Virus record (IMG/VR): IMGVR_UViG_3300025127_000356
Span: 1-20,857 of that record
Source: a virus
Strand: one strand, 5' to 3'
Length of the DNA stretch: 20,857 bases
The first letter of the stretch is position 1; every line of letters starts with the position of its first letter. This document shows, in pieces, positions 1,619-19,944 of the stretch. The notes under the pieces were generated by a model. That model made no database searches and had not been told where the DNA came from. It was given only the letters and a program-made list of their open reading frames with translations. The position numbers and the translations under genes were made by a program.

Positions 1619-1620
1619 TA

Positions 1621-2298: not shown

Positions 2299-2348
2299 TG
2301 ATTGAAAAACTTGTAGAATACAGTAAATTAGGTGAAATATGGGCATAG
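2298..2348 (+). CDS. Possible 16-residue mini-ORF or coupling leader
   Basis: ATG 2298 shares its A with the preceding TAA stop and encodes MIEKLVEYSKLGEIWA before TAG at 2346-2348. It overlaps the ATG of the next gene (2339) by ten bases. The stop/start overlap resembles the junctions between the real genes here, and GGTGA at 2331-2335, inside the mini-ORF, could act as ribosome-binding site for gene 2339. It may only carry ribosomes across the gap rather than make a useful peptide. The length is too small to judge coding potential. Confidence 0.25.
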   Translation: MIEKLVEYSKLGEIWA

Positions 2349-3316: not shown

Positions 3317-4056
3317 TGGCAATACCACAGGCAGACTTTGCAAAATTACCCACGTTTGCACAAGACGCATACAAGAAAATTATTGGACAAGCGGCAAACA
3401 TAGCAGACAGGCCAATCAACGCCGCTGCTTTGGCACCAGATCTTGATCCGTTTCAACAACAAGCGGGAGCATTACTTACACAAGGCCTAGGGTCTTACGT
3501 ACCTTATTTAGAACAAGCTGCTCAATATGCAGGGCCACAAGGCGCTGACGCTTTCATGAACCCTTATACTCAAAACGTTGTGGATACTACAACGCAACAA
3601 CTACAAAAACAATTTGGTCTTCAACAAGCACAAGCTGATCAACGTGCTGTGCAGTCAGGATCTTTTGCCGGAAGTGGCACAAGAGGTGCCGTGTTTGATG
3701 CGGCATTAGCAGGAGAACAATTTGACGTGCTTGGCAAGACCGTAGCTGATTTATACAATCAAGGATTTAATCAAGCACAAACAGCATCGCAAGGAGCTGC
3801 AGGTATTATAGGAGGACTAGGGCAACAACTTCAGGGACAACGGCTAGCGGACGTTAACGCACTGTTTAACCTTGGTGGAGCAAGAAGAGACGTAGACGCT
3901 CAACGAGCTATGTATGGTTTCCAATTGCCTACAAGTCAAGCCAGCTTCCTACAACAAGCCTTTATGGGTATGCCTATGTTCCAAGCCCCAGCTGCACCTA
4001 ACCCATTACAATCTGGTATCTCACTAGGTGGCATTATGGGTGGCTTCGGTGGTTAA
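3316..4056 (+). CDS. Gln/Ala-rich virion protein (ejection-type candidate)
   Basis: A 246-residue protein beginning MAIPQADFAKLPTFAQ. The central helical region is rich in Gln and Ala and contains MNPYTQNVVDTTTQQLQKQF, then QSGSFAGSGTRGAV. This 'NPY...V(V/I)D...GSFGGSR' pattern recurs in hypothetical structural proteins of podoviruses and other phages, near the ejection proteins. The C-terminus is Gly/Met-rich (LGGIMGGFGG) and low in complexity. The ATG overlaps the previous stop by one base, and the 3' end overlaps the next open frame by 29 bases. An internal virion or DNA-ejection role is inference from composition, motif and its place directly upstream of the giant virion protein. Confidence 0.62.
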   Translation: MAIPQADFAKLPTFAQDAYKKIIGQAANIADRPINAAALAPDLDPFQQQAGALLTQGLGSYVPYLEQAAQYAGPQGADAFMNPYTQNVVDTTTQQLQKQFGLQQAQADQRAVQSGSFAGSGTRGAVFDAALAGEQFDVLGKTVADLYNQGFNQAQTASQGAAGIIGGLGQQLQGQRLADVNALFNLGGARRDVDAQRAMYGFQLPTSQASFLQQAFMGMPMFQAPAAPNPLQSGISLGGIMGGFGG

Positions 4057-5677: not shown

Positions 5678-8600
5678 TGGTCAGAGAAAAAGAAAAAAAT
5701 TATATTCTTGGAACTGAGTTAGGGACAAAGGGTCCTGAGTTTAATGTTTTTGAAAAGATAGGTTTGGGTATAGCCTCTGGCGCTTTAAAAATACCAGAAG
5801 CCATCGCTGAATTGGGGGCTGGTTTTATTGACTACGCTCTTGACACAAATCTTGTTTCAGCTTTAGAAAAGAATTTTCCTAAAATAAATGTTACCGATGG
5901 TGTTGGAAAGTTTGTAGAGATAGTTCTTCAATACGGTGTTCCATATAGTGCCGCCTTAAAGATAGGAGGCAAACTGCATGGAATGAAAAAATTAAAAGAT
6001 CTAGGTCAGAGTTCTAGTAAAATTTCTAAAATAGCTGGCAAGATGGGGTACTATGGTCTTCCAGCTGTTGCAACAGACACTTTAGTGGGAGCTGCGAGAG
6101 ATGTTACGTTAGGAGAAACATTTGGGCTATACAAAGGATACGAAGAGGGAAGAAAAGGAAAAGTTGGACAAGAACTTGCGGGAGAAGTTCTAAAACAAAG
6201 AGCCTTGCTCGGATTAGAAGGGGGCGCTTTAGCTGGACTAATTACAACAGCCTTACCGCCAGCTTTAAGTGCTACAGCGACTGGAGTAGCTAAAGGGGCA
6301 GGTTATGTAAGCAGGGGGGTGTCACCAATAATCAATCCTGTAACGAAACTTGTGGGCAATTCTGTTGTAGGCACTGGAGCACGAAAAACATTAGATGCAA
6401 TAAAATTTGCAAAAGAAAAAATAGATCCTCTTTCTTTAAATCAATTAAGGTTTCAAAATTCAAGTCAAATGAATTTGTTTCAAAGATTTAAAAAAAGAGT
6501 TGGAGATTTAATTACTCCGCAAGGTCCTATGACGAGACAACAGTTTGAAAGTTTTCAAAATTTAGAAAACACTGTTAAATCAGTAAGGGGAGATTTAAAT
6601 TTTTTTATACCAAAGGTAGAAAAAGAAATAACAAAAGCTATAAAAACTTTGTCACTATCTAGGGGAGAATCTTTAACTAAACAAAAAGCAATACTAGAAG
6701 ACGTAGCAAGTGCGTTAGATCCTCAAACTGGCAAAGGTTTAAAAAGTTTTAAAAGTAGAATGCAAAACATTTTTGGAGTAGAGGAATCAAAAAATCTTAT
6801 TGACGCGGTTATAAATACAAAAGTATTTGCTGACGATTTAACCACTAAAGTAATTAACAATTTTGCAACCCCGGTTTTAGGAAAAGGGGGTAAAGTTATA
6901 AGAGAAGAAATTGGAGAAGAAATTTCTGGTCTGCTCAATAGGCAAATAACGACCGCATATAAAGCTTTCGACAGAAGTTCTGGATTTAAATTTTCTGGTA
7001 AAACATTTGAACAAAACAAAAAGGCAGCAATTGACGACGCAGTTGACGAACTAAGTAAAGGGGTCATGAAAGGCAAAGGGAAAGATAACGTAAGAGCTCA
7101 AGCTAAAAAAGAAGTGGAACAGTTGATTAGACTAGCAGAGAACAGTGGAACCGAGGGAAGTTTCTTTTTTAGAATAAAAGATCTAAAGGAAACTAGGCCG
7201 AAAGAATACTATCTTAGTATTTCAAAAGAAATGGCGGAAAGAAGAAGTTTTAACATACCTAATTCCAAGTATGCTTTAAGTTTAAAAAACTTATTGGGAG
7301 GCGAACTAGATCCAACAAAAGCCTTCACTAATAAATACATGGCTATTGCGTCTCAGTTAGGGCAGAAAAAACACATAAACCAAATGGTCAGATTTAACGA
7401 TAACCTTGGCCCCGCTGTTGCAGGAAGAGCAGAAAAATTTATGTTCACCCCAACAAAAACAAAAGAAAAATTGTTGAAAGAAGGGGTTGATCCAGCAACT
7501 GCTCAAAATATAGTAAATGATGATTTGGTTCAACAGATAGCAAAAGAATTTAATATCGCTCCAGAAACTGTAAATTTGTCAAGATTAGACCCATCAGCAC
7601 TTACCAAAAACATGAAAAACTCAGAGGATATATTTGGAATATATGATTCTATAAACCCTTTGAAAAGCGCTGCGAAAAGTGTGGGAGGTTATCACACAAG
7701 TTCAGGTGTAGCGCAAGCTTTAGCAGGAGTTGAAAACTACACAGACTTTTTAGTCAACTTACCTCTGTACAAAACGTTTTTAATGGGCAAGGCTGGCACA
7801 CAAGTCGGTAAAACTATTCTCAGCCCTGTAACACAAATTAGAAACTTTACTTCTGCTGGATTTTTTGCCCTTCACAACGGACACATAGGAAACCCCTTCG
7901 GTTTTAAAAAAGGAACTTTTTCATTTGCTGACGTATTAAAACAACACGTGGAGGAAATATTTCCGGACGGAGTTACAAATCAAAGGTTAAAAGAATTGGC
8001 TTTAGAAGCGTCAAGAAAAAATGAGTTAGGGGTAACAAGTGGTAGTATTGTTCAAAGAGAGATAGACGACTTATTAAAAGATGTTGCAAAAGATGGAGCA
8101 GCTTACAAAACAACAGAGGACATATTTAATAAAATATTTAGATCTCCAACTTTTAAAGAAACTTACAATAAAGCTCAACAGTTCTACACTAAAGGCGATG
8201 ATATGTGGAAAGACTACGGATACAGATTTACTTTGTCACAGTTAGGAAAAGCGTTTGACGGAAAAACAGATAACCCTGCTACAATAAAACTTATTGAAAA
8301 AGCACACTTGCAAGTTTTTGGTAGACGGCCAAATGTAACAAATGAACTTGGAAAATTAAAAAGTAAAGATGAGTTGTTGGAAGAGTTTTCAGCAGAATAT
8401 ATCAAGAACACATACCCTAATTATCAATATGTTCCAACTGCGGTTAAAGAATTAAGAAGACTTCCAATAGGTAACTTCATTTCATTTCCCGCAGAAATAT
8501 TAAGAACTTCTGGAAACCTAGTGCAACTGACAGGAAGAGAGTTAGCAATAAATACTGGAGATGCGGCAGTGGATGCTTACTTTAGGCAGATGGGATCTAG

Positions 8601-9879
8601 AAGATTAATAGGACAAATGGCTGGTTATGCAACTGGTCCAGCACTAGCAGCGTATTCGTTAAAAGCTTTGGGCATGACAGAAGAACAGTCGGACGCTTTG
8701 AAGGAAGACAATGTTGCAGAATGGAACAAGTTTAGTGATTTAATTATTATAGATAAGAAAAAAGAGAAAGACGACAACGTTAAATATAGATATTTAAATT
8801 TTGCATATCAAAACCCTTACGACTATATAAGAGCTCCTTTCTACACTTTCTTTGGTAGAATGGCTTCAGGAAAGAAAATGGAAGAGGAGGACATGAATAG
8901 ATTTGTTAATAGTAGCTTTGAAGCATTTAGATCTTTGTTTGAACCTTTTATAGACGAGGCGATTCTAACAGAACGTATAAGTGATTTAATTTTTAGAGGC
9001 GGCAGAACAAGAAGAGGTTCTTTAGTGTTTGATGAAAATGACGAAATAGGTGACAGGCTTGCTAAAGGTTTTGGTCACATTGTTAAAGGTGTTTCACCTG
9101 GAGTGCTTACACAAGTGAGCAATGTTGCGTCCGCTGTTGCGCAAGACGAAACAAGATACGGCAAACAATATAAATTAGGGGATGAACTGTTAGCGCTGTT
9201 GTCTGGTGTCAGAGTGTATGAAGCTGATATAAAAAATAATTTAAATTACTCTGTTAATGATTTTAGAAGAGCAAACTTTGTAAACAAACGAAACGCAGGC
9301 GCTTTAATTTTTGCAGCAAACGTTACTCCAAACACCATATCATCTGCGTATCAAGAATATGTTGAAGAATCCTATAAGACATACAAAAAAACCAGGAAGA
9401 TAATTGACGATGCAATAAAACTTGGCGTGCCTGAACTTTCTGTTTTTAGAATATTAGAACAAAGGAAAGTGCAAAAAGATATTGTCAACACGTTAAGAAG
9501 TAAAAAATTTATTCCACCTAATTATATGACGTTTTATAACGATCAACGGTTTCAAAATATTATAAGAGAACGAGGAAGAGCTGGATTAACACTTTTTCCT
9601 TTTAGAGAACTAGAGGGTATTCGATCACGTTACTTTAACATAGATTTATTTAAATCTTTAAATGATGTAAAGAGAACAATAGACAGACAAGCAGCTCCAA
9701 CAGTCTCTCAACAAGGGACAACAGCGCAAGCACCAGGGCTGACGGCCAACGTTCCTCCTGTCGGTTCAGCACCTCCTGGCGGCAATCAACTGGCGGGCTT
9801 GACACAAGGAGCGCCACAAACTAAAACTGTAAGAGAACGTATATTAGAAGATGATCCTTTATTTAGAGGCATAGCATGA
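5677..9879 (+). CDS. Giant internal virion protein (about 1400 residues)
   Basis: The ATG overlaps the preceding TAA and has GAGGCGG nine to ten bases upstream. The protein is 1400 residues, basic and largely helical, comparable in size to the T7 gp16-type protein that is ejected into the host with the DNA. Hydrophobic Gly/Ala-rich segments at about 169-205 (around LAGLITTALPPALSATATG) and 978-1000 (GQMAGYATGPALAAYSLKA) could insert into membrane. I see no convincing lytic transglycosylase motif at the N-terminus, unlike T7 gp16. The tail (about 1336-1385) is rich in Pro, Gln and Gly, followed by a conserved-looking end, RILEDDPLFRGIA. Such a tail may dock to a partner. The ejection role is inference from size, order and composition. 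Confidence 0.7.
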   Translation: MVREKEKNYILGTELGTKGPEFNVFEKIGLGIASGALKIPEAIAELGAGFIDYALDTNLVSALEKNFPKINVTDGVGKFVEIVLQYGVPYSAALKIGGKLHGMKKLKDLGQSSSKISKIAGKMGYYGLPAVATDTLVGAARDVTLGETFGLYKGYEEGRKGKVGQELAGEVLKQRALLGLEGGALAGLITTALPPALSATATGVAKGAGYVSRGVSPIINPVTKLVGNSVVGTGARKTLDAIKFAKEKIDPLSLNQLRFQNSSQMNLFQRFKKRVGDLITPQGPMTRQQFESFQNLENTVKSVRGDLNFFIPKVEKEITKAIKTLSLSRGESLTKQKAILEDVASALDPQTGKGLKSFKSRMQNIFGVEESKNLIDAVINTKVFADDLTTKVINNFATPVLGKGGKVIREEIGEEISGLLNRQITTAYKAFDRSSGFKFSGKTFEQNKKAAIDDAVDELSKGVMKGKGKDNVRAQAKKEVEQLIRLAENSGTEGSFFFRIKDLKETRPKEYYLSISKEMAERRSFNIPNSKYALSLKNLLGGELDPTKAFTNKYMAIASQLGQKKHINQMVRFNDNLGPAVAGRAEKFMFTPTKTKEKLLKEGVDPATAQNIVNDDLVQQIAKEFNIAPETVNLSRLDPSALTKNMKNSEDIFGIYDSINPLKSAAKSVGGYHTSSGVAQALAGVENYTDFLVNLPLYKTFLMGKAGTQVGKTILSPVTQIRNFTSAGFFALHNGHIGNPFGFKKGTFSFADVLKQHVEEIFPDGVTNQRLKELALEASRKNELGVTSGSIVQREIDDLLKDVAKDGAAYKTTEDIFNKIFRSPTFKETYNKAQQFYTKGDDMWKDYGYRFTLSQLGKAFDGKTDNPATIKLIEKAHLQVFGRRPNVTNELGKLKSKDELLEEFSAEYIKNTYPNYQYVPTAVKELRRLPIGNFISFPAEILRTSGNLVQLTGRELAINTGDAAVDAYFRQMGSRRLIGQMAGYATGPALAAYSLKALGMTEEQSDALKEDNVAEWNKFSDLIIIDKKKEKDDNVKYRYLNFAYQNPYDYIRAPFYTFFGRMASGKKMEEEDMNRFVNSSFEAFRSLFEPFIDEAILTERISDLIFRGGRTRRGSLVFDENDEIGDRLAKGFGHIVKGVSPGVLTQVSNVASAVAQDETRYGKQYKLGDELLALLSGVRVYEADIKNNLNYSVNDFRRANFVNKRNAGALIFAANVTPNTISSAYQEYVEESYKTYKKTRKIIDDAIKLGVPELSVFRILEQRKVQKDIVNTLRSKKFIPPNYMTFYNDQRFQNIIRERGRAGLTLFPFRELEGIRSRYFNIDLFKSLNDVKRTIDRQAAPTVSQQGTTAQAPGLTANVPPVGSAPPGGNQLAGLTQGAPQTKTVRERILEDDPLFRGIA

Positions 9880-10106
9880 CGGATGATGACACAAAATATA
9901 CATTAGAGGCTCACTTAAAAGAATGTGAGCTGCGTTATCAAATATTTGAAGAGAAGTTGGATAACTTAAACGAACACCAACAACGCATTAACAAGCACAC
10001 ATTTGAACTGCGTCAGATGATGACATGGTTCATGGGAGCTGCTGCATCTTTCGCAGCTATCTCCCTTCTCCTTGGAATAATTTATTTAGTTAAAGAAATA
10101 GTATGA
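9876..10106 (+). CDS. Small coiled-coil membrane protein, holin-like candidate
   Basis: A 76-residue protein. Residues about 1-48 are charged and helical with coiled-coil spacing (HLKECELRYQIFEEKLDNL). Residues about 49-72 form one membrane segment (WFMGAAASFAAISLLLGIIYL), followed by a short KEIV tail. A coiled coil followed by a C-terminal anchor is the architecture of XhlA/hemolysin-type holin partners. It follows the last virion gene with an ATGA overlap and itself overlaps the next gene by 4 bases, the position where lysis genes often lie. No endolysin is recognisable beside it, so the lysis role is only suggested. Confidence 0.6.
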   Translation: MTDDDTKYTLEAHLKECELRYQIFEEKLDNLNEHQQRINKHTFELRQMMTWFMGAAASFAAISLLLGIIYLVKEIV

Positions 10107-10477
10107 AGCTATCAGACAACACGTCCATCTCTCTTCCAGCACGTAACTTACTTGCTATACTTGCAGCCGTTGCAATTGGCACCATGAGTTATTTTTCTGT
10201 GATTGAGCGCTTAAATAAAATTGAAACTACGTTGCAGTTGATGGAGAAAGATCTAGAAGCAGCCAATACTTTTATTGATTCTGTCCCCAAGGGAGGCATG
10301 GTCAGTCCACAAGTCCAAGAGCTCTACATGTTGGTCGAGTACCTTGGTGAGAACGTAGACAAGCTCAAAGAACAAATGGAAGCAGAGATACCTATGATAC
10401 TAAAGAACGATATGGTTATACAGTTTCACGAAGAGAGATTGATAGACCTGGAGGAGAGAAAGAATGGAAACCATTAA
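10103..10477 (+). CDS. Membrane-anchored coiled-coil protein, lysis-region candidate
   Basis: A 124-residue protein with a polar N-terminus (MKLSDNTSISLPARN), one membrane segment at about 15-33 (LLAILAAVAIGTMSYFSVI), and then a long charged helical domain with heptad-like spacing up to the C-terminus. It has no lipobox and no signal-peptidase site that I would trust, so it looks like a signal-anchor protein with a soluble coiled-coil domain. This could be a spanin-like, holin-partner or virion-envelope protein. It is the mirror image of its upstream neighbour (anchor first, coil second), and the two genes overlap by 4 bases. The product is therefore predicted to act at the host membrane; the function itself is inference. 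Confidence 0.6.
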   Translation: MKLSDNTSISLPARNLLAILAAVAIGTMSYFSVIERLNKIETTLQLMEKDLEAANTFIDSVPKGGMVSPQVQELYMLVEYLGENVDKLKEQMEAEIPMILKNDMVIQFHEERLIDLEERKNGNH

Positions 10478-10685: not shown

Positions 10686-11051
10686 TTACATTCCTAATTT
10701 TTTCATTGACTCTTCTAATCTTTTTTCTCTTGGTGTTGATTGACTAATATAACCTTGAACCCACATGCAACCATCAGCGTCCACAATGAGAAACACAATG
10801 CCATCATCAGGATAATCTCTTTGATTGGCTCTTAAAGTTGCACCAGATATCCTAGTTTTTTTAGTGTCAATGTAATTTAAGGATTTGACATCAGCTCTTA
10901 AAAGTTTTTTAGTCTTTCTACTTTCTATAACTATATCAAACTGACCATGATACTCTGAATTTGGATAGACGTTGTAGCCCGCTTCTAATAGTTTAGAGAC
11001 GGCAAAATGTAAAGCAATGTTTCCCTTGGTGTGACCAGAGTTATCCGACAA
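10686..11051 (-). CDS. PD-(D/E)XK endonuclease-like protein, non-ATG start
   Basis: A protein of about 121 residues with the pattern of small PD-(D/E)XK nucleases such as PDDEXK_5-type proteins: HTKGNIALHFAVSKLLEAGY, then the catalytic Asp39 in FDIVIE, then the (D/E)xK motif as Asp54-Val-Lys56 in LLRADVKSL. These residues would bind a metal and cut DNA. The first possible start is a TTG at 11051 with no usable ribosome-binding site, and no ATG lies in frame upstream. The frame continues directly from the SNF2 ATPase gene: the ATPase stop TGA is at 11060-11058 and only two codons separate it from the TTG. The pair may be translationally coupled, or the nuclease may be made as a readthrough extension of the helicase. 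Confidence 0.68.
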   Translation of the reverse strand: MSDNSGHTKGNIALHFAVSKLLEAGYNVYPNSEYHGQFDIVIESRKTKKLLRADVKSLNYIDTKKTRISGATLRANQRDYPDDGIVFLIVDADGCMWVQGYISQSTPREKRLEESMKKLGM

Positions 11052-11057
11052 ACCTAA

Positions 11058-12512
11058 TCATAGCCATTCTTTCAGCTCCTCGCCTAATATTTCATTAGCT
11101 ATGTCTATTTTTTGTCTTAAAGCGGCAACAATTTTTTCGTCAACAGATTCTTCACAGATGATGTCAACATAATTTACTTTGTCTGTTTGTCCTATTCTAT
11201 GCGCTCTGTCCTCCGACTGCAGTCTTTTCTCTAGATCATAACTATTAGAATAGTATACGACAGTTTTAGCTGCAGTCAAAGTAATCCCGTACCCTCCCGT
11301 TTGAGGGTTACCAATAAAAAAACGGACTGGAGAATCTGGATCTTGAAAATTATCTATGCTGGTCTGCCTATGTTTTTGTTTTGTTCCACCATAATACGTG
11401 CAAAAAGACCCTTCACCAAACCTTTTGCCAATTTCTTTTGCTATATTTTCTATGTCTTGCACATAATTAGACCAGATAATTACCTTACCCTCACACTCTT
11501 CTAGAACATCTAATAGTTCTGACATCCTATTATTTTTAACTGCCGTAATTGTGCCATCATCTGCCTTAAAATGGCCACAAGTTATTTGATGTAGTCTTAG
11601 CATTTGAGTCAAGACATTCATTGTCGAACAAACTTTTTTATTCAATTCTGCAAGAGCGATAGACTTCATAGAATTGTACAGTCGTTTTTGTTCTGCTGTC
11701 ATTTGAACAACGCGCTTCTGATACACCTTATCTGGCAAATCAAGACAATCTTCTTTTAAAATCCTGTAAGAAAAATCAGACACAACAGATGAAAGCTCGT
11801 CAAGATTTCTATAACTGTCATTCGGTCGAACTATCTCTACCCTGTAACCGTTTACATGAATAGTAGTCATGTTAGCGTATCGCATTCTAAACGAATTAAA
11901 AGTGTCGTGTCCTAACAACTCGGAGTCTAAAAATCCACATTGAGAATACAAATCCAAAGGACTTTTAGTAACAGGGCTTCCTGTCATAATTCTTTTATAG
12001 TTTGCATGACGGCCAACGGACGATATGTTTTGAGTTCTCGCAGCTGAAGGAGTTTTTATTGACGTGCTTTCATCAACAGCCATCAAAGTTTTATACGCCC
12101 ACAAAAACTTAGTAGCCTCTTCTTTGCCTGGGGCAGTAGAAAAAGATTCGACATTCATTACAAAAAACGTCAGACAAGGGTCTCTTGTTTTATCATAAAG
12201 TTGAGACAACATTTGTTTGTCTTCTTTTGTTCTTGAACTTGGAGCAACCCAATAAAACGTTCTGCAGTTAATGTGATCGGGGACATGTTTAGGTATCTCT
12301 TGTTCTACCCAGTTTTTATATACACCTTTAGGGGCTACAATTAAGGCCGCATCTATGGCTCCTTTATCGTAAAGCATAGCAATATTGTCCAACAATATCT
12401 TAGACTTACCTGTTCCCATTTCACAGAACAGAGCGTAATTTTTCTTGTCCCAACTGCTTTCCAAAGCCTTCATTTGATGCTCGTAAGGCTTCGTCTTAAA
12501 TTTATATTTCAT
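11058..12512 (-). CDS. SNF2-family DEAD/DEAH-like ATPase (helicase-type motor)
   Basis: A 484-residue protein from ATG 12512. A longer TTG start at 12539 adds nine residues and would overlap the predicted promoter, so the ATG is preferred. Superfamily 2 motifs are in order: Q-like KPYEHQ at 9-13, Walker A CEMGTGKS at 30-37, Ia LIVAPKGVYKNW, Walker B VDES at 146-149 (DES in place of DEAH), III MTGSPVTKSP at about 176-185, IV KVIIWSNYV, V GGYGITLTAAKTVVYYS and VI RAHRIGQTDKV at about 436. The RAHRIGQ box is diagnostic for SNF2/Rad54-type translocases. Phage members are compact and are thought to remodel or translocate on DNA during replication or recombination. It heads a leftward two-gene unit with the nuclease downstream in the same frame. 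Confidence 0.9.
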   Translation of the reverse strand: MKYKFKTKPYEHQMKALESSWDKKNYALFCEMGTGKSKILLDNIAMLYDKGAIDAALIVAPKGVYKNWVEQEIPKHVPDHINCRTFYWVAPSSRTKEDKQMLSQLYDKTRDPCLTFFVMNVESFSTAPGKEEATKFLWAYKTLMAVDESTSIKTPSAARTQNISSVGRHANYKRIMTGSPVTKSPLDLYSQCGFLDSELLGHDTFNSFRMRYANMTTIHVNGYRVEIVRPNDSYRNLDELSSVVSDFSYRILKEDCLDLPDKVYQKRVVQMTAEQKRLYNSMKSIALAELNKKVCSTMNVLTQMLRLHQITCGHFKADDGTITAVKNNRMSELLDVLEECEGKVIIWSNYVQDIENIAKEIGKRFGEGSFCTYYGGTKQKHRQTSIDNFQDPDSPVRFFIGNPQTGGYGITLTAAKTVVYYSNSYDLEKRLQSEDRAHRIGQTDKVNYVDIICEESVDEKIVAALRQKIDIANEILGEELKEWL

Positions 12513-12517
12513 AATTA

Positions 12518-12545
12518 TTGTCTTGCTTTCTAAAAACAATATAAT
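12518..12545 (+). promoter_or_regulatory. Predicted sigma70-type promoter, rightward
   Basis: On the plus strand, TTGTCT at 12518-12523 is followed after 16 bases by a perfect TATAAT at 12540-12545. Transcription would start near 12552, about 30 bases before ATG 12581, and would serve the 12581-14272 operon. The -10 box shares positions 12540-12545 with the leftward promoter, so the two probably exclude each other. Confidence 0.5.
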
Positions 12546-12568
12546 AAGTATGGAACATAATTAGTCAA
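12541..12568 (-). promoter_or_regulatory. Predicted sigma70-type promoter, leftward
   Basis: On the minus strand, TTGACT at 12568-12563 is followed after 16 bases by TATTAT at 12546-12541. Five of six bases match the consensus in each box. Transcription would begin near 12534, about 22 bases before the ATG of the SNF2 gene. Its -10 box overlaps that of the rightward promoter. Confidence 0.5.
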
Positions 12569-12580
12569 GAAAGAAAAGAT

Positions 12581-12940
12581 ATGACGGTCTATTGCGTGCA
12601 AGAGCCTCCGGGAACAGCTAAAGGTATGCCAAAAGTAAATGTAACTAAAGCGTTGCATTTTGGCAACATAGAGTTTTTGTTTTCAGAGCGTGCGCAATTA
12701 GTGTACAGTAGCGGAGCTTTAGTAAGAGAATTAAGGAAAAAACTTGAGAAATTTAATGACGAAGATTATTTACTTCTTTTGGGTGATCCTGCTATCCTTG
12801 CTACTACTGGTGCTGTAGTTGCAGATGTCAACCAAGGTAAATTTAAAATGTTGAAATGGGATCGTGAATCTGCTAAGTACTATCCTTTAGAAGTTAATTT
12901 ATATCAGAAAGAAAATAATTATGAGCAAGATAGATTTTGA
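12581..12940 (+). CDS. Conserved phage replication-module protein, unknown function
   Basis: A 119-residue protein beginning MTVYCVQEPPGTAKGMPKVN. The centre reads NIEFLFSERAQLVYSSGALV then RELRKKLEKF, then DYLLLLGDPAIL. I recall this pattern from uncharacterised proteins of marine phages that sit at the head of the replication cluster, but no function is known to me. No membrane segment, Cys cluster or catalytic motif stands out. It is the first gene after the divergent promoter region, with AAGAAAG about ten bases before the ATG. It overlaps the next gene by 20 bases, which points to coupled expression. An early regulatory or DNA-metabolism role is inferred from position alone. Confidence 0.75.
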   Translation: MTVYCVQEPPGTAKGMPKVNVTKALHFGNIEFLFSERAQLVYSSGALVRELRKKLEKFNDEDYLLLLGDPAILATTGAVVADVNQGKFKMLKWDRESAKYYPLEVNLYQKENNYEQDRF

Positions 12941-13481
12941 ACAGGACCAAATAGAAGCGGTCTCAAATAACGATGCAACTTCAATTGGAGATTTGTGTCA
13001 AGAATTAGTCGACATGGAAGCTGAAGTCACAGCTCTTAAAGACTTACTCAAACAAAAACAAGAAGACGTCTTAGAACTTAAACAAGTTAAAATTCCTGCA
13101 TGGATGCAAGAGAAAAACTTGTCGCAATTAAAATTAAATGATGGCAGTTCTATAGAGGTCAGTAATTTTTACGGAATTTCGATACCAAAAGATCCTGATG
13201 CCAGGGCTAATGCGTATCAATGGCTTCGTGACAATAACCTTGGAGATATTATCAAAAATGAAATAGCTGCAAGGTTCGGTCGTAACGAGGACGGGAAGGC
13301 GTTGGATTTTGCCAAGTTAGCCACCGCAAATGGTTATGAGGTTGAACAAACTTTAAAAGTTGAACCTCAGACCTTAAAAGCAACTCTGAAGGAACTACAC
13401 CAAAAAGGTGTGGCTCTGCCACCTGAAGAGACATTTAAAACGTTTGTGGGCAGACAAGCAAAAGTAACAAGGAAAAAATAA
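12921..13481 (+). CDS. Conserved phage coiled-coil protein of the replication module
   Basis: A 186-residue protein. The first 60 residues are acidic and helical with coiled-coil periodicity (LCQELVDMEAEVTALKDLLK). The next part is globular, with LKLNDGSSIEVSNFYGISI, then YQWLRDNNLGDIIKNEI and ARFGRNEDGKALDF. The C-terminus contains VEPQTLKATLKELHQKG and ETFKTFVGRQAKV, and ends basic (TRKK). The same order of segments occurs in unnamed proteins of many podoviruses beside ssDNA-binding-like proteins, so a role with single-stranded DNA or recombination is plausible but not demonstrated. It is flanked by overlapping genes on both sides (20 bases and 1 base). Confidence 0.75.
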   Translation: MSKIDFEQDQIEAVSNNDATSIGDLCQELVDMEAEVTALKDLLKQKQEDVLELKQVKIPAWMQEKNLSQLKLNDGSSIEVSNFYGISIPKDPDARANAYQWLRDNNLGDIIKNEIAARFGRNEDGKALDFAKLATANGYEVEQTLKVEPQTLKATLKELHQKGVALPPEETFKTFVGRQAKVTRKK

Positions 13482-14272
13482 TGACAAATAAAGTAACAAA
13501 GACAAAGGCCAACGGACAAGTGATGCCGGCGGTTAGTTTAGACTTAGTGCAAGCTGATGCTGAGTCAATTAGTGGGCTAGAAAATGCTAATAGCCCAGAT
13601 GATCTGGCGCTACCTTTTTTAAAGGTACTGAGTCAGTTATCCCCGCAATGCAATAAGACTAGCAACTCGTTTGTAGAAGGGGCAGAACCCGGAATGATCT
13701 ACAACACTGTTAGCGGTAAACTTTATGATGGAGAAGAGGGCATAGATATTGTGCCATCTTTTTACAAAAGAGAGTATATCGAATGGGGAGAAAGAGGCAA
13801 AGGCAGTGGAGCGCCTATTGCCATACACGATGCAAACTATGACATCTCACAGGCTCCAAGGGATGCAGGTTTTCAAAACAGATTACCAAATGGTAATATT
13901 GTTGAGGAGACAGCAAACCATTTCGTTCTGGTATTGGACGGAAAAAGTTCTGAGCAGGCTTTAATTACAATGAAGTCAACTCAGAGAAAGGTGTCGCGAA
14001 AGTGGAACTCAATGATGAAAAGTCTTACCATGCAAGGTAAGAATGGTTCATTCACACCGCCATCGTACAGTCATGTTTACAGATTGAAAACTGTACCACA
14101 GTCCAATGCAAAAGGGACTTGGTTTGGTTGGGACGTATTTAAAGTAGGTCCTGTTCAAGATGCAAATGTGTACGAAACCGCAAAACTTTTTGCACTTGGC
14201 GTGAGTAAAAACTCCGTGAAAGTCGAGCATCAAGAAGAGGTGAACGTCACAAAAAAAGCGGAAGCTTTTTAA
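13481..14272 (+). CDS. Conserved phage protein, possible ssDNA-binding protein
   Basis: A 263-residue protein. Its hallmarks are LPFLKVLSQLSPQ, then EGAEPGMIYNTVSGKLYDG with GIDIVPSFYKREYIEW, then NHFVLVLDGKSSEQALITMK and STQRKVSRKWNSMM. This family is common in marine phage replication modules. It is sometimes treated as a single-strand-binding candidate because of its beta-rich core and its place just before the primase. The C-terminus (VNVTKKAEAF) ends in an aromatic residue but lacks the acidic tail typical of SSB and T7 gp2.5, which weakens that idea. ATG 13481 overlaps the previous TAA and has AAGG upstream. The gene ends at a strong intrinsic terminator, so transcripts over this gene should outnumber those of the genes after it. 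Confidence 0.7.
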   Translation: MTNKVTKTKANGQVMPAVSLDLVQADAESISGLENANSPDDLALPFLKVLSQLSPQCNKTSNSFVEGAEPGMIYNTVSGKLYDGEEGIDIVPSFYKREYIEWGERGKGSGAPIAIHDANYDISQAPRDAGFQNRLPNGNIVEETANHFVLVLDGKSSEQALITMKSTQRKVSRKWNSMMKSLTMQGKNGSFTPPSYSHVYRLKTVPQSNAKGTWFGWDVFKVGPVQDANVYETAKLFALGVSKNSVKVEHQEEVNVTKKAEAF

Positions 14273-14275
14273 ACT

Positions 14276-14305
14276 AAAGGGCGGCATTTTTGCCGCCCTT
14301 TTTTT
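14276..14305 (+). terminator. Rho-independent terminator
   Basis: A perfect inverted repeat, GGGCGGCA at 14279-14286 and TGCCGCCC at 14291-14298, encloses a TTTT loop. A run of seven T follows at 14299-14305. Flanking AAA/TTT at 14276-14278 and 14299-14301 can lengthen the stem. It begins 3 bases after the preceding stop and ends ten bases before the primase start, with both genes on the same strand. Confidence 0.93.
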
Positions 14306-14315
14306 GTGGTGATTC

Positions 14316-15965
14316 ATGCAAGACAGATTTCTCATAGGTAAAATATTTAAAGGTAACGAAGTAGCCTACGGCGTCTTTAGACCCGCGAACGAAAAAGATG
14401 AACGCGGAAAAGAACAAGGCGGTCAAGGTTGGGGCCACACTGAACAACTGTCCACTGACACAGAAGTTTGGAAAGGGCATCTAGAGGGCACACAAAGCAT
14501 AGGCACAGTGCCCGTGGATCATGAAGGAGAGTGCCATTGGGGTTGCATAGACATAGACACCTACAAAAATTTTAATCATGTGCATTTAATTAAAAGTATA
14601 ACAAGGGCAAAACTTCCCTTTGTGGTTTGTAGGTCAAAGAGCGGCGGAGCTCACGTCTATTGTTTCTTTAAGAATGCAGTCAAAGCAAAAGACTTGCAGA
14701 AAAAATTAAAACAAGCGAGTGCTCTTCTTGGATATAAAGATGCAGAAATTTTTCCAAAACAAAATAAACTATTGAGAGGTCAGACAGGAAACTATGTCAA
14801 CGCTCCGTATTTTAATGAAAAGAATTGTCAGAGGTACGCACTAAAACTAGAGGACAGCGGCTTAAAAATACTGTCTTTAGAAGAATTTTACGCTGAATAT
14901 GAAGAGAAGGCTCTCACAAACATAGACGATTTAAATGTACAGACAGACATAATATTTCCAAAAGGCCCTCCTTGTAATAATTGTATAGCCCTTAATGGAT
15001 GTAGTGAGGGGGGCAGAAATAATTTTTTGTTTAATTGTGCAGTCATGTTGAAAAGAATGCATGAGGAGAGCAAAGAGGACTGGTTGATGGAACTTAGAAA
15101 CATTAACCAAAAATATATCGATACACCACTCAACGAAGTAGAGTTATCTAGAATATATGCGTCAGTGACAGGACACATGGAGCACGAAAATAGACAGGTG
15201 TTGGGAGACAACGTAGAGCTAGAAGAGGCAGACAATTCTAACTACCACTATTTATGTAAGCAAGAACCTATGAGTAGTTTTTGCGACAGGGTCACTTGTA
15301 TGTCAAGGAAGTTTGGCGTTCAACGGACAACGGAAGAGGGCGATGGTTACCCAGTGATTGCGTCCATAGACAAAGTCTATGATGAGCCAATATTTTATTA
15401 CATAACTTTTGAGAACGGTGTTGTGGCTCGGATGGAGGCGGACGATATATTTGAAGAAAAGAATTGGAGAAAAAAAGTTGGACTTATTTTAGATGCAAAG
15501 CCCCCAGGACTTGGTGCGGCTAATTTTGACGATTGGATGCGCACTCAAATGAGAGATCGCATGACACACGTTCAATTGCCAGAAGGTGTCGGTCGATACG
15601 ATAGAATTAAACAATCTATAAACGATTGGTTTACCGGTACAGGAGCAGGGGACGACAATACAAGTTTATTAAAAGGGTCTTCATGGTATGATGAAAAAAA
15701 GAAAGTAATTTATTTTAAGTATTCGGATTTATATAGCGCTTTAGTTTCTGTCAAAGCTATACGAGAAACTCCGAAAGAATCTTCAACGCTCATGGACTTT
15801 TTAAAAAGACCGGCAGAGGGAGACAACCCAGGCCTTGGTGCAACACAAGCCAGATTAAATATTGGGGGCAAAACAAAGTTTGCTTGGGCCATCAAAGAAG
15901 AAAATTTAAATTTAGAACAGGCAGAACTTGAGCCAAAAGAAATTATTAAGGAGGAACCACTATGA
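14316..15965 (+). CDS. Archaeo-eukaryotic-type (TOTE-like) DNA primase
   Basis: A 549-residue protein with the archaeo-eukaryotic primase (AEP) motifs in order: CIDID with metal-binding Asp79 and Asp81; KSGGAHVYCFF with His113; and EIFPKQNKLLRGQTGNYVNA at about 145-164, the signature of TOTE-type AEP domains. A Cys-rich PriCT-like element (CNNCIALNGCSEGGRNNF, about 219-236) and a second one (CKQEPMSSFCDRVTCMSRKF, about 314-333) may bind zinc or an iron-sulfur cluster. The rest (about 340-549) is unassigned and replaces the helicase domain that is fused in TOTE proteins. It should make primers for the phage polymerase. The ribosome-binding site is weak (GGTGA, five bases before ATG 14316). The gene overlaps the next one by 4 bases, where GGAGG precedes that start. 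Confidence 0.85.
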   Translation: MQDRFLIGKIFKGNEVAYGVFRPANEKDERGKEQGGQGWGHTEQLSTDTEVWKGHLEGTQSIGTVPVDHEGECHWGCIDIDTYKNFNHVHLIKSITRAKLPFVVCRSKSGGAHVYCFFKNAVKAKDLQKKLKQASALLGYKDAEIFPKQNKLLRGQTGNYVNAPYFNEKNCQRYALKLEDSGLKILSLEEFYAEYEEKALTNIDDLNVQTDIIFPKGPPCNNCIALNGCSEGGRNNFLFNCAVMLKRMHEESKEDWLMELRNINQKYIDTPLNEVELSRIYASVTGHMEHENRQVLGDNVELEEADNSNYHYLCKQEPMSSFCDRVTCMSRKFGVQRTTEEGDGYPVIASIDKVYDEPIFYYITFENGVVARMEADDIFEEKNWRKKVGLILDAKPPGLGAANFDDWMRTQMRDRMTHVQLPEGVGRYDRIKQSINDWFTGTGAGDDNTSLLKGSSWYDEKKKVIYFKYSDLYSALVSVKAIRETPKESSTLMDFLKRPAEGDNPGLGATQARLNIGGKTKFAWAIKEENLNLEQAELEPKEIIKEEPL

Positions 15966-17554
15966 GTGTTAAATTAAAAGAGGCAGAAAAAATATTTGGC
16001 CCGCCAGGAACAGGGAAAACAAGACGACTAATCACTAAAGTTAGTTGGCTAATCAATGAAAAGAAAATAGATCCAGGAGACATTTGTTACATAACATTTA
16101 CAAACAAAGGCATTGATGAAGTTCGAGAAAGATTAAAAGTCACAAAACAGACAGATGGTTATGATTCATTTGCAACGATCCACGGACTATGCAACGGATT
16201 TTTAAAAGGTAAAGAATCTCGTTTAGTCAAAGAAGCTGATTTTGAATATTGGGCTAAGAAAGAGGACGGCGATCTTAAAAAAGAATTTGGTGGCGACCTA
16301 GATAATAATTTTGTTATACAAGTTTATAACCTTTATCGTGTAGCCAACATTTCTTTGCGAGAAGCATTTACAAAATTAAACGAAAGAAATTATAAGTGGA
16401 ACAGGCTTGAGGGGTATGTAAAGAGTTGGGAATTTTACAAACAAAACAATAAGTTACACGATTTTACTGATCAGATACTCAACGCTTTGGACGTGGATAG
16501 GTTCAAAGAATATAAAGCTGTGTTCTTAGATGAGGCCCAGGACTCCTCCTGGTGTCAATGGCAAGTAATTAAAAAACTTATGGACAAAGGCTCTGTTGAA
16601 TATTTGTATATTGCAGGGGACGATGACCAAGCAATCTTTGATTGGAACGGCGGCGAAGTTAAATATTTTTTAAATGCGTACACTTCTGTTTGTAAATCAA
16701 AAGTTTTAGAGAAGTCATACAGACTAACGAACCAGCACATACATTTTGCAGAACAAATAAGTTCTGACATAAAATACAGACAAGAGAAGGAATATCATTC
16801 TGATCATGAACACTCTGGTGAAATTCATTACACAGATAGATTTTCACAAATTCCTATCAAAGACGGACAGAGCTGGACAATCATGGTGACCGGTTCTTCT
16901 GTCATGTCAGAGTTAAAAGATCTTTTGATACGGCAAAGGGCTTGGTTTGTACAGACAACGGCCAAGGGTTACGTTCATTATCCTGTTGGCGCAAAGATTA
17001 TAGCTGCGTTAAAATGTTTTTTTACTTTGCAAGGAGATAAGTATGTTACGCGATCAGACCTTTTAAATTATAGAACATTGGTCAAACCAAAAAACTTTAA
17101 GCCTAAACAATGGGAGGAGCTCGATCCAGATCAGTTATACAAAGCGCAGGACTTAAAAGATATGTTTGGTCTAGACTTTTCTGTTGATTGGAAAGAGGCG
17201 TTTGCGAATGTAAACAACCCAGAATGGAACAGAAAGAAAAAATATATAATGGATTGCATTGATCAAGGTGTTGATATTTTTGATAAAAAGCCTAAGATAA
17301 AACTTTGTACAATACACAGCATGAAGGGCGGAGAGGACGAAAATACAGTTGTTGTAGGCAACATGGAAATGCCTTTCCATAAAAAGTATAAAAGTTTTGA
17401 TCATGTTGAGAAAGACACAATTAAAAGAATGTTTTATGTTGCATGCACAAGAGCCAAACAAAGGATGTATATTTACATGTGTCCTAGTTTAAAATTTCGT
17501 TTTGATTTTGACAAAATGTACAGAACATACAAAGACAGAAAGGAAGTAGCATAA
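15962..17554 (+). CDS. UvrD/Rep-like superfamily 1A DNA helicase
   Basis: A 530-residue protein with the SF1A motifs: Walker A GPPGTGKT at 13-20, Ia YITFTNKG at about 43-50, II FLDEAQD at about 188-194, III YIAGDDDQAIFDWNGG at about 216-231, V TIHSMKGGEDENTVVV at about 450-465, and VI FYVACTRAKQRMYIY at about 490-504. This set marks an ATP-driven 3'-5' translocase on single-stranded DNA. It is shorter than cellular UvrD (about 720 residues) and lacks a fused nuclease. Since the neighbours are a primase and a polymerase and no ring helicase is seen here, it may be the replicative unwinding motor of this phage, which is inference. GGAGG at about 15951-15955 precedes ATG 15962; the start overlaps the primase stop. 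Confidence 0.92.
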   Translation: MSVKLKEAEKIFGPPGTGKTRRLITKVSWLINEKKIDPGDICYITFTNKGIDEVRERLKVTKQTDGYDSFATIHGLCNGFLKGKESRLVKEADFEYWAKKEDGDLKKEFGGDLDNNFVIQVYNLYRVANISLREAFTKLNERNYKWNRLEGYVKSWEFYKQNNKLHDFTDQILNALDVDRFKEYKAVFLDEAQDSSWCQWQVIKKLMDKGSVEYLYIAGDDDQAIFDWNGGEVKYFLNAYTSVCKSKVLEKSYRLTNQHIHFAEQISSDIKYRQEKEYHSDHEHSGEIHYTDRFSQIPIKDGQSWTIMVTGSSVMSELKDLLIRQRAWFVQTTAKGYVHYPVGAKIIAALKCFFTLQGDKYVTRSDLLNYRTLVKPKNFKPKQWEELDPDQLYKAQDLKDMFGLDFSVDWKEAFANVNNPEWNRKKKYIMDCIDQGVDIFDKKPKIKLCTIHSMKGGEDENTVVVGNMEMPFHKKYKSFDHVEKDTIKRMFYVACTRAKQRMYIYMCPSLKFRFDFDKMYRTYKDRKEVA

Positions 17555-17787
17555 TGGGATGGAGAGATGTGCAAGTCGATGGTGCTCACTACAAAGCTTT
17601 GAGCATACAACCCACAGATTATATTGTAAAAAATAAGTTGGGTTGGAGAGAGGGCAACATTGTTAAATACATAACTCGTCACTCTGAAAAAGGAAAAGCA
17701 AAAGACGTTAGAAAGATAATACATTTCGCTTTAATGATTTTGGAGGATGAGTATGGAGAAGAATACCAAATTAAATCTGTGGACTGA
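17554..17787 (+). CDS. DUF3310 family protein
   Basis: A 77-residue protein showing the DUF3310 pattern: a 'HYKALSIQPTDYIVKNKLGW' start, then GNIVKYITRH, a Lys-rich stretch (SEKGKAKDVRKI) and a helical IIHFALMILEDE end. The family is small, helical and very common beside phage replication genes. Some members are labelled nucleotide kinase without good support, and no Walker motif is present here. ATG 17554 overlaps the helicase stop and follows AAAGGAAG. The 3' part overlaps the polymerase gene by 35 bases and contains that gene's ribosome-binding site. Confidence 0.83.
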   Translation: MGWRDVQVDGAHYKALSIQPTDYIVKNKLGWREGNIVKYITRHSEKGKAKDVRKIIHFALMILEDEYGEEYQIKSVD

Positions 17788-19654
17788 GTGGATGTTTGAA
17801 GAAAATTTTCCAGATTTGTCACAAGAAAAATATCTCGCGGTTGACTTAGAGACCTGTGATACAAAACTATTAACTCACGGGTCTGGTTGGGCGACAGGTA
17901 ACGGGTATGTAACAGGATTTGCGTTAGCTACAAAAGACTGGCAGGCGTACTATCCAATAGCTCATGAGAAGGGCCGAAACATGGATCCGGACAAAGTCAT
18001 TCCTTGGATTAAAAAGACACTGTCCTACAACATGCCTAAAATATTTCACAATGCCTCCTATGATATAGGTTGGCTAAGACACATGGGCATAACCGTCAAT
18101 GGTACTATACACGACACCATGATTTCAAGTGCTTTAATAGATGAAAATAGATTTTCGTTTACTTTGAATAGTTTAGCTAAAGATAAATTAGGTACCACAA
18201 AGAACGAGGACGAGCTTATAGCGTATGCTCAAAGCGCAGGTATCGATCCAAAGAAAGAAATGTATAAAGTGCCTGCTCTATATGTAGGACATTACGCGGA
18301 ACAAGATGCACGGCTCACGTACGATTTGTTTTTTTATAATCAAAAACAAATAGACGAACAAGGTCTCGAGCAGATATATGATCTTGAGACCAGACTACAG
18401 CCTTGCTTGATTGACATGAGGGCAAAAGGCGTAAGAGTTGACTTGGAAGCAGCACAAAGAGCAAAAAAAGATTTAATTATTGATGAAGAGGCCGCGTTGT
18501 TTCAGATAAAAAAGTTATCTGGTGTTGATGTAAATGTTTGGGCGGCGGCTTCTGTTGCTAAAGCGTTTGACAAAATGAACATTACATACGACAGGACAGC
18601 TACAGGCAAGCCAAGCTTTACTAAAAACTTTTTGGTAAAGCATAAATCAGATCTTGCACAATTGGTCATAAAAGCCAGGGAATCAAACAAAGCACACACA
18701 ACATTTATTGACAGCATCATGCGTCACCAGCACAATGGACGGATACATTCTGAGATACATCAAATGAGAAGCGATGACAAAGGCACAGTGACCGGTCGAT
18801 TTAGTTACAGCAACCCAAACTTACAGCAGATTCCTGCCAGGAATAAAGAAATTAAGAATAAGATCCGTTCTTTGTTTATACCAGAAGAGGGCAAGAAGTG
18901 GGGGAGCTTTGACTATTCACAGCAGGAGCCACGAATGGTGGTGCATTTTGCAGAGAGAGTTAACGAAGCGGACGGTTTTACGTATGAATCAAAACGACCG
19001 AGCATGGATACAAAGCATTTTATTCAAGGGTACAAGTCAGGCGACGCAGACTTTCACGATATGGTTGCAGAGATGGCGAACATAGAAAGGTCGGCGGCTA
19101 AAACAATCAACCTTGGTTTGTTTTATGGCATGGGTCGAGGTAAACTAAAAGAAACTTTAGGCATTAATGATGAGACAGCCGAAATATTAATTAATGATTA
19201 CAATGATAAAGTTCCGTTCGTTAAACAGTTATCACAGCGCGCGATGGAGTCGATGGAGAGTAAGGGTTATGTGACCACGGTCTACGGCCGACGGTGCCGT
19301 TCTTTTGGTTTCGTTCCTATTAGATGGGGCGTCTCTGGTTTTTATAAGACAGAGAAAGAGGCCGAGGACGCGTTAGGCAAGTATGGCTATAAAAAAGCAT
19401 ACACATACAAAGCATTAAACAAATTAATTCAAGGATCGTCCGCCGATCAGACAAAGAAAGCAATGGTAGACTTGTACGAACAAGATGGTATCATACCTCA
19501 CATACAAGTTCATGATGAACTTAACATATCTATTGAAGGTAAAGAACAAGCTGAAAGGATCATTAAGGTTATGGAGCATTGCATTAAACTCAACGTACCA
19601 AGTAAAGTTGATTGTGAGATCGCAGACAACTGGGGTGATGCAAAAGGTTCGTGA
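17753..19654 (+). CDS. Family A DNA polymerase with 3'-5' exonuclease (Leu762 type)
   Basis: A 633-residue protein from ATG 17753, chosen because GGAGG at 17742-17746 lies six bases upstream; the in-frame ATG 17747 touches that site directly. The proofreading domain is intact: ExoI VDLET (Asp31, Glu33), ExoII NASYD (Asn100 to Asp104) and ExoIII YAEQD (Tyr181, Asp185). The polymerase domain has motif A FDYSQQEPR (Asp387), motif B with Arg446, Lys450 and Tyr458, and motif C VHDEL (Asp588, Glu589). The residue aligned with Phe762 of E. coli Pol I is Leu454 (codon 19112-19114). This residue affects nucleotide selection and speed versus accuracy. There is no 5'-3' exonuclease domain. It replicates the phage genome, probably with the primase and helicase encoded just upstream. 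Confidence 0.95.
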   Translation: MEKNTKLNLWTEWMFEENFPDLSQEKYLAVDLETCDTKLLTHGSGWATGNGYVTGFALATKDWQAYYPIAHEKGRNMDPDKVIPWIKKTLSYNMPKIFHNASYDIGWLRHMGITVNGTIHDTMISSALIDENRFSFTLNSLAKDKLGTTKNEDELIAYAQSAGIDPKKEMYKVPALYVGHYAEQDARLTYDLFFYNQKQIDEQGLEQIYDLETRLQPCLIDMRAKGVRVDLEAAQRAKKDLIIDEEAALFQIKKLSGVDVNVWAAASVAKAFDKMNITYDRTATGKPSFTKNFLVKHKSDLAQLVIKARESNKAHTTFIDSIMRHQHNGRIHSEIHQMRSDDKGTVTGRFSYSNPNLQQIPARNKEIKNKIRSLFIPEEGKKWGSFDYSQQEPRMVVHFAERVNEADGFTYESKRPSMDTKHFIQGYKSGDADFHDMVAEMANIERSAAKTINLGLFYGMGRGKLKETLGINDETAEILINDYNDKVPFVKQLSQRAMESMESKGYVTTVYGRRCRSFGFVPIRWGVSGFYKTEKEAEDALGKYGYKKAYTYKALNKLIQGSSADQTKKAMVDLYEQDGIIPHIQVHDELNISIEGKEQAERIIKVMEHCIKLNVPSKVDCEIADNWGDAKGS

Positions 19655-19944
19655 CCGACGACAACATTATATATTTTTCACTGTGTCCAGGGTGCAATAA
19701 GATGACGACGATGAAACCTTATGGCAAAAAGAAAAATATTTTTTACTGTCAGCATTGTAAGACACAATACAAACAGCACATCAACGGCAAGATTGTGTAC
19801 ATACCTTTGCATGTTGCTGATTTATTAGAGCAAACAATCAAAGATCATTATAAGAACAACCCAGATGCAGAGCCAGAAGCAGAGTTAAATTTTTCAATAG
19901 ATTTTGAGCCTGATATAGATTTTGACCCGGACGAGACTACTTAA
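19651..19944 (+). CDS. Zinc-ribbon protein with acidic tail
   Basis: A 97-residue protein from GTG 19651, whose first base is followed by the polymerase stop TGA (4-base overlap); AAAGG lies about five bases upstream. Cys12 and Cys15 (CPGC) with Cys33 and Cys36 (CQHC) form a four-cysteine zinc ribbon separated by 17 residues. The middle (about 45-70) is probably helical, and the tail (about 72-97) is strongly acidic (SIDFEPDIDFDPDETT). A ribbon plus acidic tail suits a protein-protein or nucleic-acid adaptor, for example acting on polymerase or transcription. No specific family is recognised. Its stop overlaps the convergent TSCPD gene by 8 bases. Confidence 0.7.
   Translation: MTDDNIIYFSLCPGCNKMTTMKPYGKKKNIFYCQHCKTQYKQHINGKIVYIPLHVADLLEQTIKDHYKNNPDAEPEAELNFSIDFEPDIDFDPDETT

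Follow-up and report, generated by a model that had tools for sequence, protein, structure and literature searches.

The 20,857-base virus record IMGVR_UViG_3300025127_000356, analysed here as a whole (the window) and probably a genome fragment, carries a replication block at 10686-19944. In this block an archaeo-eukaryotic primase (AEP) stands behind a probable single-stranded DNA-binding protein (SSB) of the Pam3 gp34 family and is followed by a separate UvrD-like helicase of superfamily 1A (SF1A) and by a family A DNA polymerase (PolA). We consider it fairly probable that the window comes from a marine tailed phage with a self-contained replication block, whose replisome works without a ring helicase; the direction of the motor and its role at the fork are what we infer. 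Textbook replisomes rest on ring helicases. Complete phages with their own primase, polymerase and probable SSB, in which profiles find no ring helicase, are a direct test case: could a motor that forms no ring and moves 3'-5' be the principal replicative helicase for a genome of 42-78 kb? The gene set is ordinary in marine phages; its interest is that of a testable non-ring replisome.

The three reading frames that a first-pass annotation of this DNA had taken for primase, helicase and polymerase lie where it placed them (Table 1), with a DUF3310 gene in addition between the last two. Its order of a primase without a fused helicase, then a separate UvrD/Rep-like motor and then PolA, also holds. 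The primase belongs to the AEP superfamily and is of the TOTE/CAPP type on both its sequence and its predicted fold, as the annotation had proposed. It matches the AEP-TOTE profile of Pfam at 57.5 bits against a cut-off of 27. The motifs D79-I80-D81 and S109-G110-G111-A112-H113 named in the annotation are real, and so is EIFPKQ, which occupies residues 144-149, one residue before the position given for it (about 145-150). D79, D81, K108, S109, G111, H113, E144, F146 and P147 are invariant in alignments of 14 and of 59 sequences, and E144 would be the third acidic residue of the AEP active site. A profile of the 14 sequences, compared with solved structures, finds a CAPP chain at 5e-15 with EIFPKQ aligned. 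The model built from the 59-sequence alignment (the window and its IMG/VR relatives; mean predicted local distance difference test (pLDDT) 84.6, predicted template modelling score 0.61) has the AEP fold on which the annotation had staked its assignment. The six Foldseek matches of this model at E <=0.001 are all CAPP, and in VIA structural alignments residues 1-207 superpose on CAPP 7nqe at Z 19.5 (183 aligned residues, 2.5 A), with weaker matches of the model to PrimPolC, LigD-Pol and the human and yeast primases (Z about 7-10.6).

CAPP (7nqd/7nqe) thus shares the AEP catalytic fold, the motifs and EIFPKQ with the window primase. CAPP both synthesises primers and elongates them; it begins with a ribonucleotide and prefers deoxyribonucleoside triphosphates (PMC8211822). 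By analogy, the window primase may have the same priming and extension activity. CAPP type 1 has a TPR domain (PMC8211822); a Pfam scan of the window primase does not find one, and this primase has a PriCT-1 domain, a Cys cluster and a winged-helix-like domain instead. The cysteines C314, C323 and C328 are invariant in both alignments and possibly form a metal site, and in VIA residues 425-533 match 5vfx_D, a relaxosome accessory protein of pCW3 (Z 8.2, 92 aligned residues, root-mean-square deviation 3.0 A), and forkhead domains at Z about 5.

A TOTE conflict system is defined by an AEP fused to the helicase part of the system. The Pfam scan finds no helicase domain fused to the window primase, and its neighbours are replication genes. 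It could still be asked whether the AEP and UvrD genes form a defence or counter-defence unit, in the manner of TOTE, CAPP or GajB of Gabija, that merely sits beside replication genes. PADLOC does match the primase weakly to CRISPR-associated PrimPol (2.6e-7) and the helicase to GajB (5e-34 at best); however, with a profile of 10 family sequences PcrA (1.9e-49), Rep (2.4e-47) and UvrD (about 1.5e-43) score far above GajB (3e-18). In complete phage genomes the pair also constantly stands beside the SSB candidate and mostly beside PolA, and no Toprim_2 primase is found in those genomes. We therefore regard a defence unit as very improbable.

The window helicase is a UvrD/PcrA/Rep-type SF1A enzyme as judged from its sequence, with both UvrD Pfam domains (N and C) over cut-off. 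Of the motif residues, K19, E191, R254 and H452 occur in all 89 family members and R497 in 87 of them. The stretch between the motif IV Arg and the motif V His measures 197 residues in the window helicase, with a family median of 187; on the alignment, the corresponding stretch of E. coli UvrD (3lfu), between R284 and H560, has 275. We take this interval to contain the 2B subdomain, which would make 2B probably shorter by about 80 to 90 residues. Self-inhibition is known for Rep and UvrD, and since Rep is activated by removal of 2B, it is plausible by analogy that the shortened interval frees this helicase from self-inhibition.

PolA, also by sequence, carries a proofreading domain and Leu762. 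The exonuclease and polymerase motifs are found in the window protein, and all 62 open reading frames (ORFs) of the family with at least 560 aa, the window's among them, have Leu in the alignment column that corresponds to E. coli Pol I position 762. Its best solved-structure match is 7pbk, presumably a DpoZ structure. Against the NCBIfam model phage_DpoZ_1 it scores 334.6 bits (1e-99), below the cut-off of 500, which places it outside DpoZ by that model.

The annotation had proposed a search of the complete genome for a ring helicase of the DnaB or T7 gp4 type. The 20,857-base record itself has no DnaB_C match; as it is a fragment, its relatives were searched instead. No credible DnaB or gp4 gene was found in any of 32 records with the AEP-UvrD pair, namely 10 named genomes described as complete and 22 IMG/VR contigs of 15-68 kb, some of them short and some closely alike. 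DnaB_C gives no match in all 16 records of the first set and in 15 of the 16 contigs of the second, and the control, T7 gp4, is found at 65.6 bits. The remaining contig, G012, has a sub-threshold match of 11.3 bits, which was rejected because it sits in an ORF that reads as a kinase-like P-loop protein. Toprim_2 is absent from 20 related records, 19 of them with the AEP-UvrD pair, and present in the T7 control; D5_N has no match in 21 records, T7 included, in a search without a phage control. Eight AAA_25 matches, all under cut-off, were set aside as UvrD P-loops (five), genes annotated exodeoxyribonuclease V (two) and PhoH (one).

The nearest long relative is the 62-kb IMG/VR contig G001, whose primase, helicase and PolA are 54%, 65% and 75% identical to those of the window. 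It is not called complete, because its first 77 bases recur near its end and the match then fails. A PHROG scan of 20 of its 39 ORFs of at least 150 aa found portal, terminase, capsid, tail, GroES and exonuclease genes and no ring helicase; of the others, 11 match window genes and 8 of 152-227 aa were not scanned, and the six-frame DnaB_C and Toprim_2 profile searches cover the whole contig. With Toprim_2 missing from 20 relatives and present in T7, and with portal, terminase and GroES genes and no gp4 found in G001, the T7-like frame in which the annotation had set the block is not supported. It is possible that a diverged ring helicase lies below profile detection in the relatives. The only AEP-bearing record with a DnaB-like gene is MW202803 (L024, W11), in which DnaB_C, matched in both searches, reaches 24.2 bits (cut-off 27) in a gene annotated DnaB-like, the AEP match is partial and divergent, and neither UvrD nor PolA is matched; this contrast, with n=1, is suggestive of a possible natural swap of helicase type.

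A phage without a ring helicase of its own might borrow one. Host DnaB could drive the fork through an unrecognised loader, in which case the UvrD-like protein would be an accessory for repair, recombination or the clearing of road-blocks. Phages such as lambda do use host DnaB, and two conserved genes of the block, gp32 and gp33, have no known function. However, no DnaC/IstB-type match over cut-off is found in 19 AEP-UvrD records, where four weaker IstB matches prove to be PhoH (two) or the UvrD P-loop (two). Moreover, DnaB normally partners DnaG, whereas here the phages supply an AEP and a PolA of their own, and on contigs that are long enough an AEP without UvrD is unseen except in the divergent MW202803. 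We regard this use of host DnaB as unlikely.

The linkage of the two genes is best seen in a census of 104 AEP loci (the window, 92 IMG/VR loci and 11 named phages), the nearest among at least 598 related IMG/VR stretches. The loci are not independent of each other: L008 and L033 were cut from a single contig, and the window, L001 and L002 share one primase sequence. A UvrD gene follows downstream on the same strand as the AEP gene in 102 of the 104, with a median stop-to-stop gap of 116 bases; in the window the start of the helicase gene overlaps the end of the primase gene by ATGA. The two loci without a downstream UvrD are L063, where the contig ends 278 bases past the AEP gene, and MW202803 with its DnaB-like gene. 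PolA is found in 36 of the 39 loci with at least 6.5 kb past the AEP gene, and of the other three R5C and Pan1 have PolA elsewhere. Among the 20 records searched whole, PolA and UvrD are each present in 19.

Bacterial and archaeal assemblies contributed a further 46 AEP loci. A gp34-like gene is present in 26 of them, and UvrD in 24 of these 26; the two without UvrD lie on contigs that stop at the AEP gene. The remaining loci comprise one with UvrD and no gp34 and 19 with neither, many of which have longer or more distant AEPs. By these counts, a tie to UvrD holds for the AEP within this block and not for the AEP domain as such. Seven of the assembly loci (L143-L147, L149 and L151) come from alphaproteobacterial assemblies, including SAR116, and have longer AEPs (about 723-731 aa in six of the seven); neither UvrD nor gp34 is matched in the DNA examined.

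The gp34-like protein is probably an SSB with an oligonucleotide/oligosaccharide-binding (OB) fold, and would bind single-stranded DNA; in its model (pLDDT 81.8) the strand order is OB-like. VIA aligns this model with a BRCA2 OB chain at Z 6.0 and with RB69 gp32 at Z 5.7; many RPA and SSB chains, together with some unrelated ones, follow at Z 3-4, values that may arise by chance, and none is decisive. A profile of the family reaches a best E of 0.29 against the sequences of solved structures. The family is matched in 503 phage records, 361 of them Pseudomonas phages, and among the matches listed 36 of 40 are annotated hypothetical protein. Members from Pseudomonas phage misfit, Xanthomonas phage XcP1 and Alteromonas phage ZP6 are encoded in replication regions whose polymerase or primase genes are of other kinds. 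Their C-termini read EAEEF, TADNF and DEEFA respectively, and in DEEFA a single residue follows the Phe. The gp34 family may be an unrecognised SSB family, which would gain a function if the SSB reading is true.

The SSB reading gains independent support from the aromatic C-terminal tails. The tails were counted by clusters at 60% to reduce redundancy. Of the gp34-like proteins, 88 of 93 members and 15 of 19 clusters have F, Y or W as the last residue, with tails such as DDDIPF, DEEIPF and KDSTPY; the window protein ends in AEAF. Such tails resemble the tip of E. coli SSB. The primases behave similarly, with an aromatic last residue in 86 of 102 members and 12 of 22 clusters; some end in DEDIPF or DEEIPF, and the 54% relative of the window primase ends in ERAF. 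Six neighbour families together have such ends in 3 of 87 clusters (UvrD 2/21, gp32 1/14, PolA 0/12, gp33 0/16, SNF2 0/11 and DUF3310 0/13), although by members gp32 reaches 14 of 56. Fisher tests against the neighbour families, which assume independent clusters, give p values of 7e-8 for the primase and 4e-12 for gp34. T7 offers a parallel, as its primase-helicase and its SSB share a Phe-ended tail (gp4 and gp2.5 both end in DF). The primase tail may dock on a partner that it shares with the SSB tail, and the similarity of the two tails gives a concrete docking hypothesis.

We propose the following working scheme for the fork. First, the UvrD-like motor, an SF1A enzyme by sequence, would open the fork by moving 3'-5' on the leading-strand template ahead of PolA, and PolA, with its Leu762 and proofreading domain, would copy the leading strand. 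Second, the gp34-like protein, with its predicted OB fold, would coat the displaced strand, on which the AEP would lay primers. In T7 the primase travels with a ring that moves 5'-3' on the lagging strand. The primase here would need a tether of its own, because no such ring carries it; the winged helix may serve as one and, in many relatives, so may the SSB-like aromatic tail, by docking on the partner of the SSB tail. The SNF2 translocase would probably clear or remodel DNA-protein complexes. Compared with the T7 replisome (gp4, gp5 and gp2.5), the family A polymerase is held in common, and so, in many relatives, are the aromatic tails of SSB and primase; an AEP replaces the DnaG-type primase, a separate SF1A motor replaces the fused ring helicase, and the predicted polarity is opposite. 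In herpesviruses an SF1 helicase, UL5, works with an AEP primase, UL52; UL5 is a 5'-3' motor, unlike the 3'-5' direction predicted for the window helicase. A broader statement would be that a widespread kind of phage replisome does without a ring helicase altogether. In it, a trimmed UvrD-like motor would run 3'-5' on the strand that PolA copies; the AEP, not linked to this motor, would in many of the phages be kept at the fork through an SSB-type C-terminal tail matching that of the phage's own SSB; and this arrangement would have been reached independently of T7. This we offer only tentatively, at somewhat less than an even chance.

It is also conceivable that PolA itself opens the fork by strand displacement with the help of the SSB, with UvrD and SNF2 only assisting and the AEP priming the displaced strand. 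Strand displacement in vitro is known for some viral PolAs of the Leu762 and Phe762 types, and those that show it have SNF2 neighbours; the displacement, however, is moderate to strong and was obtained at high enzyme concentration (PMC9069017). Furthermore, with UvrD present in 102 of 104 loci, the gene is kept more faithfully than an optional helper would be. We consider displacement by PolA improbable, slightly more so than the use of host DnaB.

Several points nevertheless weigh against a replisome driven by the UvrD-like motor, in addition to the interdependence of the census loci and the short or closely similar contigs among those searched. SF1A motors elsewhere are weakly processive and act mostly in repair or plasmid replication, and host DnaB is always available to a phage. 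The complete genomes R5C and Pan1 (L022 and L023) contain, besides the AEP-UvrD pair, another UvrD match as well as a gene with the annotation exodeoxyribonuclease V, and in three loci 4-5 kb separate primase and helicase. The window primase ends in EEPL, with no terminal aromatic residue, and the primases of R5C, Pan1, HTVC023P, HTVC027P and MW202510 lack one as well. As for the SSB candidate, Foldseek finds no match of its model at E 0.001, and VIA ranks highest, at Z 8.4, one chain from a phiC31 integrase-directionality-factor fusion or synapse, the range of which would fit the 244-residue gp3; a profile comparison was negative despite this Z, and phiC31 gp3 was rejected as a sequence relative. 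Finally, no biochemistry for these proteins was found in the literature covered.

The gene set is common in marine phages and is already a known kind, since the link of Leu762 PolA with UvrD and SNF2 without ring helicases has been published. Nasko et al. (2018) found a UvrD-like neighbour for 68% of 247 Leu762 Group II PolAs, always together with SNF2, and set non-ring against ring helicases (PMC6302109); Keown et al. (2022) repeat the association (PMC9069017). The annotation had said that such a replisome would be unusual; in the sense of rare this does not stand, given the published association and the relatives in IMG/VR. The virioplankton contigs in these studies share with the window the Leu762 PolA and the UvrD-like and SNF2-like genes, and have no gp4; the available parts of both papers assign DnaG primases to other PolA clades, and for the Leu762 group they mention neither an AEP nor an SSB nor complete genomes (PMC6302109, PMC9069017). 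For mobile elements, a figure of Kazlauskas et al. (2018) draws SF1 helicases near AEPs, and the same authors state that only about 2% of double-stranded DNA viruses with a primase lack a replicative helicase (PMC5862659).

Among named phages, the Pelagibacter phages HTVC023P and HTVC027P, 023Pt_psg01 and DSL-LC04 have the same order of SSB candidate, primase, UvrD and PolA, with primases 25-32% identical to that of the window, and DSL-LC04 also has SNF2, gp32 and gp33 upstream as in the window. The aminoadenine phage SH-Ab 15497 and its likely relative PMBT28 (L021; DpoZ group), which presumably has aminoadenine DNA too, carry the same AEP and UvrD genes, with the helicase about 4-5 kb past the primase; no purZ-type gene is present among the window genes scanned. 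SH-Ab 15497 has been named as an aminoadenine (Z-DNA) phage (PMC8599892), and for HTVC023P-type genomes the core gene list includes helicases, PolA and GroES, with the primase used as a marker (PMC9599517). In our literature searches, which covered few subscription papers, no description was found of the AEP-UvrD pair as a unit in these phages, of gp34-type SSBs or of SSB-like tails on phage AEPs. What this analysis adds is the constant AEP partner, the gp34-like SSB candidate, the aromatic primase tails and the shortened 2B-bearing interval.

Table 1. Genes, domains and signals of the replication block, with positions in the window
Feature	Position	Strand	Basis and remarks
Small, weakly PD-(D/E)XK-like protein	10686..11051	-	PDDEXK_5 0.0036, under cut-off; phrog_5018 7e-11
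SNF2-type translocase	11058..12512	-	SNF2-rel_dom 2.6e-21, Helicase_C 2.2e-14 (Pfam); divergent to the block
Pam3 gp32-like protein	12581..12940	+	Pfam Pam3_gp32 3.5e-30
Pam3 gp33-like protein	12921..13481	+	DUF7307 1e-25; relative in DSL-LC04 annotated DNA-ends protecting
Probable SSB, Pam3 gp34 family	13481..14272	+	PF23977 5e-66; OB-like model; tail ends in Phe
Intrinsic terminator	14276..14301	+	Between SSB candidate and primase; 11-pair stem, 7 G-C, then T run
AEP primase, 549 aa	14316..15965	+	AEP-TOTE 2e-15, PriCT_1 8e-5 (Pfam); phrog_21866 primase 7e-71
AEP catalytic domain, residues 1-207	14316..14936	+	Motifs D79xD81, S109GGAH113, E144IFPKQ; range from VIA structural alignment
PriCT-1 domain, residues 226-284	14991..15167	+	Pfam PriCT_1 8e-5
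Cys cluster of primase, residues 312-330	15249..15305	+	Invariant alignment columns
Winged-helix-like domain of primase, residues 425-533	15588..15914	+	VIA match 5vfx_D
UvrD/PcrA/Rep-type SF1A helicase, 530 aa	15962..17554	+	UvrD-helicase 1.3e-33, UvrD_C 3.4e-9 (Pfam)
DUF3310 protein, between helicase and polymerase	17554..17787	+	Pfam DUF3310 5e-7
Family A DNA polymerase with 3'-5' exonuclease, 635 aa	17747..19654	+	DNA_pol_A 7.5e-60, exo1 8e-14 (Pfam)
Small CxxC...CxxC protein overlapping the polA end	19651..19944	+	G001 (62 kb) has an ORF of 38% identity in the corresponding position

The terminator past the SSB gene would yield more SSB than primase. A terminator-like hairpin is found in 11 of 79 distinct intergenic stretches, versus 0.5% of shuffles, and in near relatives the bases of the stem have changed while the pairing is kept. 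One of the assembly loci, L153, has the full block in a contig binned as a Thermoplasmatales archaeon, and is probably a misbinned phage contig.

Outside the block, seven ORFs were scanned in 100-9879; structural PHROGs match three of them (one weakly), a family of unknown function matches one, and three match nothing. A gene at 10103-10477 with a weak PHROG holin match adjoins the replication block in the window, and its 68% relative in G001 sits near base 7128, far from the replication block of that contig.

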